From Caryophanales bacterium (GTDB lineage Bacteria; Bacillota; Bacilli; CAJFEE01), in contig JAQSYP010000001.1 in assembly GCA_029256085.1 (NCBI GenBank), positions 124,001 to 188,000 of the forward strand: a stretch of DNA of 64,000 bases, read 5' to 3'. The notes under the pieces are model-generated. The model saw nothing but the letters and a program-made list of their open reading frames with translations. It searched no databases and was not told where the DNA came from. How positions within the stretch are numbered: the first letter of the stretch is position 1; the number at the start of each line of letters is the position of its first letter. The position numbers and the translations under genes are program-made. Shown here in pieces: positions 46,155 through 53,007 of the stretch.

Positions 46155-46190
46155 ACTAATCGTCGTAAGCCCAATAAAATTATTTACTTG

Positions 46191-46317
46191 CTGATTAACG
46201 CTTACGGCACTCGCTTTCCTAGGGGCACTCCGCAAGCCTCCGCACTTGCTTCGCTCGCTTACGGGGTCTTGCCGGAGCGCTTTTCCCATAGGAGTCTCGT
46301 GCCATCGCTGCAATCAA
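46191..46317. repeat. large nested palindrome, variant element
   Basis: GGCACTCGCTTTCCTAGGGG and CACTCCG on the left are mirrored by CGGAGCGC, TTTTCCCATAGGAGTC and TCGTGCC on the right, around a GC-rich centre (TTCGCTCGC). It shares CTCGCTTTCC and GGAGTC blocks with copies A-D but is a distinct form. From 46318 to 46577 the sequence is AT-rich and I see nothing definite. Confidence 0.75.
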
Positions 46318-46577
46318 CGCATAAACAGTCCTTCCACGGTAAGGAAGTTATTTATCAACGATTAAACTATAAAGTTTTAATACAAATCCAAATCTAATTA
46401 ATAACTAATAAGGATTTATAAATTTCATTAGTAAAAATTATAAATATTTACCAATTTTAGTCAAAAATAATCAGGTAAAACATTTAATAACAAAATATTT
46501 ATTTATGAATATATCTAGCATTAGTAGGGTTTTCTAGTATATAAAAAATGTTTTTAAAATTATTTGTAAAAACTTTA

Positions 46578-46606
46578 TTGCAAATTGTATAAATACGAAG
46601 TATACT
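46578..46606 (+). promoter_or_regulatory. SigA promoter of speD
   Basis: TTGCAA (46578-46583), 17-bp spacer, TATACT (46601-46606); predicted start near 46612. Confidence 0.75.
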
Positions 46607-46610
46607 AAGT

Positions 46611-46769
46611 TTCGTGAACTTCTTAAATAGCATAGGTAACGCGCTACTTAAAGGGTTAGGACCTCTCTGGACTAACTTTCCCCCGTGGTAGAATTGGTTA
46701 CCATATTGTGCAAGAGTTCGTTTCTTTTACCTTCAAATTTTATTTCTATTTAAAGGGGGAAACCGCAAT
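46611..46769 (+). promoter_or_regulatory. structured speD leader, candidate RNA switch
   Basis: About 158 nt of 5' leader. Closing stem GAACTTCTT (46616-46624) with AAGAGTTC (46712-46719, one bulge); inner stem GGTAAC (46635-46640) with GTTACC (46697-46702); hairpin GTTAG (46655-46659) with CTAAC (46672-46676), extendable by G-U pairs. TTTCCCCC (46677-46684) can pair perfectly with GGGGGAAA (46755-46762), which contains the speD ribosome site. Long-range control of translation is inferred; I do not recognise a named family. Confidence 0.6.
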
Positions 46770-47153
46770 ATGGATACTATGGGACGTCATGTAATTTCTG
46801 AACTATGGGGCTGTGACTTTGACAAATTGAACGATATGAAATATATCGAAGAAACATTTGTTAACGCTGCATTAAGAGCAGGTGCTGAAGTACGTGAAGT
46901 AGCTTTTCACAAATTTGCACCACAGGGTGTAAGTGGTGTTGTTATCATTTCAGAATCTCACTTAACTATTCATAGCTTCCCAGAACACGGATACGCAAGT
47001 ATTGATGTATACACATGTGGAGACATTATTGATCCTAACGTTGCTGCTGACTTCATCGCTGAAGCTCTATCTGCAACTACAAGAGAAAATATTGAATTAC
47101 CACGTGGTATGGGTCCTGTTCAGGTAAAACGTACTGAATCTAAAGCGCTTTAA
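46770..47153 (+). CDS. speD: S-adenosylmethionine decarboxylase proenzyme
   Basis: Provides decarboxylated SAM for spermidine. Pyruvoyl enzyme that self-cleaves between E62 and S63 ([17 protein letters not shown]); H68 and C83 (VYTCG), the other catalytic residues, are present. 127 residues, the short bacterial class 1B form. The ribosome site AAAGGGGG is part of the leader pairing described just upstream. Single-gene unit ended by a strong terminator. Confidence 0.96.
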
Positions 47154-47164
47154 AAAAGATAAGT

Positions 47165-47197
47165 AAGAGGTGTAATTAATTACACCTCTTTTTATTT
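47165..47197 (+). terminator. terminator after speD
   Basis: AAGAGGTGTAAT and ATTACACCTCTT form a perfect 12-bp stem, followed by T. Confidence 0.9.
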
Positions 47198-47226
47198 TGT
47201 CTAAAAAAATTCTCGTTAATCGTATC

Positions 47227-47365
47227 GGATTAAAAAACTTTAATTTCGGATTAAAAAATTTATATTTCGGATTAAAAAATTATATTTTGGATTAAAAACC
47301 TTATATTTTGGATTAAAAACCTTATATTTCGGATTAAAAAATTTTTTATTGGATTAAAAAGTTAT
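47227..47365. repeat. seven-unit 20-21-bp-period array upstream of nrdR
   Basis: GGATTAAAAA starts at 47227, 47248, 47269, 47289, 47310, 47331 and 47351: steps of 21, 21, 20, 21, 21 and 20. Units read roughly TATATTTCGGATTAAAAAAT. A-tracts fall on one face of the helix, so the segment should be bent. It lies between the speD terminator and the nrdR promoter. Confidence 0.9.
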
Positions 47366-52814: not shown

Positions 52815-52945
52815 ATATATGGATTATGTTTGATAAAGTAGAAGCCCACGCTTCTCACCTGTCTGATAATTGAGTTAGCAGGTAAACGAGACAATTAATT
52901 TTAATTACTCGAGGTGTGGGCATATAATGCTCACACCTTTTTAGT
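52815..52945 (+). promoter_or_regulatory. L20-type leader and attenuator of infC operon
   Basis: A structured leader ends in a terminator stem GGTGTGGGC/GCTCACACC with T5 (52914-52943). In B. subtilis L20 binds the equivalent leader and promotes termination; position before infC-rpmI-rplT and the competing pairings around GTAGAAGCC/GGTAATTCTAC support the same here. Confidence 0.8.
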
Positions 52946-53007
52946 ATGTAAAAGGTAATTCTACTTTTTCAAACTACTTATGTAATATTCCCATGGAGGT
53001 GCTTACT

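Follow-up and report, generated by a model that had tools for sequence, protein, structure and literature searches.

The product of speD, S-adenosylmethionine (SAM) decarboxylase, is the enzyme that commits SAM to spermidine. Several classes of described leader RNA bear comparison with the leader of this gene. The preQ1-II riboswitch is an H-type pseudoknot that contains an additional, embedded hairpin; the Shine-Dalgarno (SD) sequence serves as a strand of the second helix, and control is translational. The SAM-II, SAM-V, and SAM-III/SMK riboswitches are small aptamers, built as pseudoknots or junctions, whose ligand site overlaps with the masking of the SD, and they precede genes of the metX, metY, and metK type. 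Pseudoknots that mask the SD usually repress upon ligand binding. The L20 leader, which senses a protein, belongs to a ribosomal protein operon. Few riboswitches have been validated as polyamine sensors, and those few are rare: the spermidine riboswitch is a variant of SAM-I with 13 examples and a narrow spread, found before speE, speB, speD, and ldcC (PMC10853860).

Here, we describe the speD leader in a 64,000-nucleotide stretch of DNA from a member of the Bacillota (the window, in whose coordinates all positions are given). The leader element is conserved across many Bacillota of several classes, including close relatives of Bacillus subtilis. It probably acts in cis as a riboswitch-like RNA that controls speD translation through an SD-masking pseudoknot and turns synthesis off in response to a small molecule from the SAM-to-spermidine pathway, for which spermidine is the likeliest candidate.

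Results

speD is a single-gene unit with its own leader

The speD gene of the window is an equivalog of B. subtilis SAM decarboxylase, as judged by its TIGR03330 match. The following features make up its transcription unit.

46578..46606, + strand: sigma-A type promoter of the speD unit, TTGCAA-17-TATACT (TTGCAA at 46578-46583, TATACT at 46601-46606; promoter scan)
46611..46769, + strand: speD 5' leader, with its start placed at about 46611-46614 by promoter spacing and the conserved UCGUG at its 5' end
46770..47153, + strand: speD, SAM decarboxylase, 127 aa (TIGR03330, 139.9 bits; cutoff, 75.65)
47165..47190, + strand: intrinsic terminator directly 3' of speD (terminator scan)

The promoter had been picked out by an earlier model-made reading of the letters (the sequence-only reading), and our scan found it again in the same place; an equal arrangement precedes the speD leaders of relatives. 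Since the gene has its own promoter and leader and is followed directly by a terminator, speD forms a single-gene unit and the leader serves one gene. A scan of the leader itself found no terminator-like site of the kind expected for T-box, PyrR, or other attenuation systems, which makes translational control a better fit than attenuation.

Some further elements were observed nearby. The sequence UCGUG (or UCGUA), at 46612-46616 in the window, lies right behind the -10 box, where the transcript is presumed to begin, and is seen again even in distant classes. The gapB/speD intergenic region holds a GC-rich dispersed repeat (46170-46345) with ten matches in the genome including itself, the others being partial and 72 to 82% identical. 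Between speD and nrdR (47225-47365) there are about seven tandem copies of an AT-rich 21-bp unit (TCGGATTAAAAAATTATATT).

The leaders have a nearly invariant core in common

We compared 81 leaders, comprising that of the window and those of 80 speD loci confirmed by tblastn, mostly from Bacillaceae, with the B. subtilis group among them. All of them have a nearly invariant core in common, which runs P3–UUAAAGG–P4 hairpin–CCCCCGUG–P3', after which comes the GGGGG of the speD SD. The consensus of the core reads CGUGAACUU ... (C/U)UAC UUAAAGGGUUAGGACCUCNNNGGACUAACUUUCCCCCGUGGUA(G/A) ... AAGGGGG, with variable arms between its parts. In the window, the elements of the leader RNA are as follows.

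46614..46622, + strand: P1 5' strand, GUGAACUUC, of a peripheral closing stem (minimum-free-energy [MFE] fold, alignment A3, and cognate-arm test)
46635..46640, + strand: P2 5' strand, GGUAAC, peripheral and variable (MFE fold and cognate-arm test)
46644..46647, + strand: P3 5' strand, CUAC, 4 bp here and up to 6 bp in relatives (compensatory changes)
46648..46654, + strand: near-invariant junction, UUAAAGG (alignments of leaders)
46655..46676, + strand: P4 hairpin, GUUAG-ga-CC-ucucu-GG-a-CUAAC (alignments; in other classes, an A-U pair becomes G-C and the tip varies)
46680..46684, + strand: CCCCC, the anti-SD, complementary to the SD G-run (five C's in 168 of 168 leaders)
46685..46687, + strand: GUG linker from the anti-SD to the P3 3' strand (alignments of leaders)
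46688..46691, + strand: P3 3' strand, GUAG (compensatory changes)
46697..46702, + strand: P2 3' strand, GUUACC (MFE fold and cognate-arm test)
46713..46721, + strand: P1 3' strand (MFE fold and alignment A3)
46755..46759, + strand: GGGGG, the SD G-run of speD and proposed pseudoknot partner of CCCCC (co-conservation with CCCCC)

The sequence-only reading had proposed a closing stem, an inner stem, and a hairpin. The hairpin GTTAG/CTAAC (46655-46659 with 46672-46676) and the inner stem GGTAAC/GTTACC are both present in the sequence, and the MFE fold of the leader contains the closing, outer stem GAACUUCUU/AAGAGUUC. Both the closing and the inner stem proved to be peripheral, however, and that reading had missed the key stem, P3. 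In some groups, the P1/P2 arms are replaced by a local hairpin, and two leaders (L115 and L130) are almost armless. For the arms, pairing with the cognate partner was more favorable than pairing with partners from other species (mean of -13.4 versus -11.0 kcal/mol, z = -7.1, not adjusted for relatedness). The tip of P4 is likewise free to vary. In one locus (L191), a long GC-rich stretch is inserted at this tip, with the remainder of the motif intact.

The conserved GUG behind CCCCC raised the question of an upstream open reading frame at which ribosomes stall in a polyamine-dependent manner, as in the mammalian SAM decarboxylase mRNA. Despite this animal precedent, we regard such control as very improbable. 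Frames that begin at the conserved GUG are of no uniform length, spanning from 2 to more than 40 codons, only 24 of 149 leaders contain an ATG that has an SD-like run, and P3 varies in step with its partner strand rather than codon by codon. No conserved upstream reading frame was found in the 149 leaders, and control of this type was rejected.

P3 and P4 covary

Folded as a single sequence, the leader of the window is no more stable than its shuffles (z = -0.38). Folding alone is thus insufficient for the claim, which is carried by the comparison of relatives. Across the aligned leaders, the pairing percentage and covariation score exceeded those of 500 of 500 shuffles and of every slid control. 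In alignment A3 (87 sequences), which was fitted to the model, 95.8% of cells were paired, compared to 85.9% after shuffling and 25.6 to 48.6% after sliding; the P1 columns of A3, fitted to that stem, were 89.7% paired. The result was similar in a core alignment made by MAFFT independently of structure (A4; 96.2% paired, versus 88.3% shuffled and 18 to 52% slid) and in a cross-class alignment (A5; 95.9%, versus 75.9% shuffled and 24 to 56% slid).

The strands of P3 change in step, taking the forms CUAC/GUAG, UUAC/GUAA, UCAC/GUGA, CAAC/GUUG, UUGC/GCAA, CACC/GGUG, and UCGC/GCGA. As a guard against relatedness, we placed the P3 states on an independent tree of the downstream SpeD proteins and counted changes by simple parsimony. 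An inferred 25 double compensatory changes fell on pairs 2 to 6. In pairs 3 and 4, both sides changed 14 times, one side changed 3 times, and the pair was broken 3 times. P4 shows an A-U/G-C double change across classes in A5, along with U-A/U-G. On this comparative sequence evidence, the P3 and P4 stems are real, and P3 is the best-supported stem of the leader. The 5' leader of a metabolic gene therefore carries a conserved, covarying structure, as is found in riboswitches, and the covarying stems that the sequence-only reading had called for in relatives do exist.

Covariation proves structure but not switching, and the element could be constitutive, setting mRNA stability or a basal level of translation with no regulatory input. 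We think this quite unlikely, as stability would require neither an invariant unpaired junction nor the coupling, across classes, of the SD to a C-run far away, and as 109 genomes with speD do without the motif.

The C-run and the SD are conserved together

An SD with at least five G's was found in 149 of 149 distinct leaders from Bacilli and in 19 of 19 distant leaders, and the complementarity between CCCCC and this G-run was kept in all of them. As background, we surveyed 428 ordinary open reading frames in the window and 18 stretches of 20 kb by a generous search allowing up to eight start codons each. GGGGG occurred in the SD of 44 of these (10%) and GGAGG in 108. Among speD leaders that lack the motif, GGGGG was seen by eye in 3 of 17, and most of the 17 use GGAG-type sites. 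Sequences other than GGGGG match the 16S tail better, and the joint fixation of GGGGG and CCCCC is therefore best explained by mutual pairing. CCCCC is also kept although the length of the preceding spacer varies, with the register shifted by 1 nt in two leaders (L160 and L167), and the distance from the C-run to the G-run ranges from 34 to 70 nt.

Because the P3 strands flank CCCCC, P3 and the C5-G5 helix would interleave as an H-type pseudoknot. Its first loop would consist of UUAAAGG, P4, and UUU, and its second of the 3-nt GUG. Both runs are invariant, so covariation cannot prove this helix; we infer C5-G5 pairing from complete co-conservation. In the nested fold of the window, from a model that cannot show pseudoknots, the SD pairs mostly with a local U/C-rich strand and the mean C5-G5 pairing is 0.07. 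Such a local hairpin would, in the model, mask the SD too.

The sequence-only reading had placed the mask in an 8-nt helix between TTTCCCCC (46677-46684) and GGGGGAAA, which would compete with a hairpin extended by G-U pairs. This complement is exact in the window, but conservation is limited to CCCCC/GGGGG. Of 149 leaders, just 48 have AAA after the G-run, and the full helix UUUCCCCC/GGGGGAAA was accordingly rejected as the conserved mask, which would instead be 5 bp long and part of the proposed pseudoknot with P3. Furthermore, a U-to-C change in one group turns G-U into G-C, which suggests that the U's belong to an extension of P4 rather than to SD pairing. The broader idea of a translational switch fares well: stems covary, the complementarity of C-run and SD is kept in relatives, and no Rfam family matches, so that none of the three outcomes named as refuting by the sequence-only reading was seen. 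In addition, the leader has no terminator.

The motif is linked to speD across Bacillota

To define its distribution, a covariance model of the leader (R1) was run on 400 genomes drawn from Bacilli. The motif occurred once each in 186 genomes, representing 84 of 145 genera. All but one of these genomes have speD, and in the exception the motif touches a contig end. SpeD (PF02675) was present in 294 of the 400 genomes, the 109 without the motif among them. Sixty of the 186 loci were retrieved for inspection; in motif loci L083 to L172, SpeD lies directly downstream, with an identity of 100% down to about 39% among the loci listed. A model of the core (R2) found three further genomes outside Bacilli, and searches around these yielded 20 listed matches, 19 of which sit just upstream of speD. 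With a third model (R3), built with out-of-class copies, we found no association besides speD. Two weak genome matches lacking speD were judged to be chance, the twentieth of those listed (L234; E = 0.02) and an extra match from R3 (L243; E = 0.007). Among the copies examined, the motif preceded speD only, with none before speE or other polyamine genes.

The motif was not found in viral contigs or phages. A plasmid search gave one match, again before speD and in the gene order gapB-speD-nrdR. This 258-kb "plasmid" of Anoxybacillus amylolyticus (NZ_CP015439.1, 58714-64791) bears a polA-mutM-coaE-gap-speD-nrdR-dnaB-dnaI core block including the motif RNA. Such a chromosomal block is odd on a plasmid, and the replicon is perhaps a chromosome fragment or a chromid. 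Three loci (L182, L187, and L188) hold second SpeD-family genes that lack the motif, in genomes that have it elsewhere; these may be repurposed decarboxylases of the kind described previously (PMC10407285) or plain paralogs.

The spread of the motif also bears on whether a protein, such as SpeD itself or an RNA chaperone, could bind the core and block the ribosome, in which case control would be autogenous or protein mediated. Near-total invariance over about 25 nt could represent a protein footprint, and the B. subtilis leader was copurified with Hfq, under the entry "Unknown or speD leader region" (PMC3574147). However, many known leader switches of different kinds were likewise pulled down in that study, company that also suits the switch reading, and the same RNA core occurs with SpeD proteins of less than 50% identity. 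We consider protein control unlikely.

Discussion

We favor a ligand-sensing RNA that acts on translation. In this model, P3 and the embedded P4 hairpin would form a scaffold, and the conserved unpaired residues UUAAAGG and CCCCCGU would provide a putative binding pocket. CCCCC would pair with the GGGGG of the SD, interleaving with P3 and hiding the ribosome site. The ligand, most likely the end product spermidine, would stabilize the pseudoknot and shut off synthesis of SpeD; without the ligand, the SD would be free. The absence of both a terminator and a conserved reading frame, the SD in a likely pseudoknot, and the invariant unpaired junction together suggest that control is translational and involves a specific binding partner, and the exclusive link to speD implicates the SAM-to-spermidine step.

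Spermidine is the leading but unproven candidate, with SAM, decarboxylated SAM, and methylthioadenosine as close rivals; SAM and spermidine had been the guesses of the sequence-only reading, and both are reasonable. Product feedback is favored because SD-masking pseudoknots usually repress, a behavior that fits a product better than a substrate. The position of the motif before speD only, and not before speE or other polyamine genes, is less expected of a spermidine sensor. The same RNA and pseudoknot could respond to one of the three other compounds instead; if that compound were SAM, the switch might work in the ON direction, such that SpeD is made only when SAM is plentiful. This reading is plausible but less likely. 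It would account for the exclusive link to a SAM-consuming enzyme, and in an abstract from 2000, Sekowska and colleagues are said to have described modulation of B. subtilis speD transcription by spermidine and methionine. Yet no resemblance to a SAM riboswitch family was found in Rfam, in searches with E values of up to 10 for the window and up to 1 for relatives.

Returning to spermidine feedback on translation, a study of a B. subtilis speD deletion (PMC5519356) reports transcript changes of more than 2-fold in genes for nitrogen, purine, methionine, membrane, and biofilm functions. These reported changes leave room for control of speD at the level of translation and neither support nor exclude it. 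In a broader and more tentative form of the proposal, which we hold with somewhat less than even confidence, the RNA would be a widespread new riboswitch class of Bacillota, unrelated to SAM-I. It would use a pseudoknot that includes the SD to sense spermidine or decarboxylated SAM, and it would give Bacillus and related bacteria their main feedback on spermidine synthesis. With its strong conservation and structure, its presence in the B. subtilis group and several classes of Bacillota, and its lack of an Rfam entry, this RNA at the step that commits SAM to spermidine may explain how these bacteria set spermidine synthesis and is possibly a new ligand-binding RNA fold.

The sequence-only reading had recognized no described family. 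In agreement, no match to the motif reached the gathering threshold of Rfam 15, either in the window (E up to 10) or in nine relatives (E up to 1). A mir-460 match (E = 0.0096) and a PyrR site match on the other strand (E = 3.3) fell far under their gathering scores and were taken as chance. In a full-text search of 5.39 million open papers, no description of the motif was found, and no relevant paper contained its core sequence. Judged by its sequence and predicted structure, the speD leader looks like a new RNA switch class, absent from Rfam 15 and the searched literature.

The window contains one known leader of another type, an L20 ribosomal protein leader (RF00558) at 52830-52948, above the gathering score. 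It, too, is a conserved leader with structure, and it controls the operon downstream of it; it has no sequence relation to the speD leader. The SAM-II, SAM-V, and SAM-III/SMK riboswitches are similar to the speD RNA in their SAM biology and in the proposed masking of the SD in a small pseudoknot, but they differ in conserved residues and genes and gave no Rfam match up to an E value of 10. The spermidine riboswitch also precedes polyamine genes, including speD, in Gram-positive bacteria, and as a leader it has a demonstrated OFF function (PMC10853860). That RNA has the SAM-I fold, whereas the present one is found in hundreds of genomes and before speD only. No SAM-family match indicative of the four-helix SAM-I aptamer was obtained with the Rfam SAM models, as far as these would capture the 13 variants. 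Compared to preQ1-II, the speD RNA is unrelated in sequence, is associated with other genes, and has its embedded hairpin upstream of the anti-SD strand, within the first loop. The proposed speD pseudoknot would resemble preQ1-II in its topology, in its use of the SD as a pairing strand, and in its probable translational mode of control.
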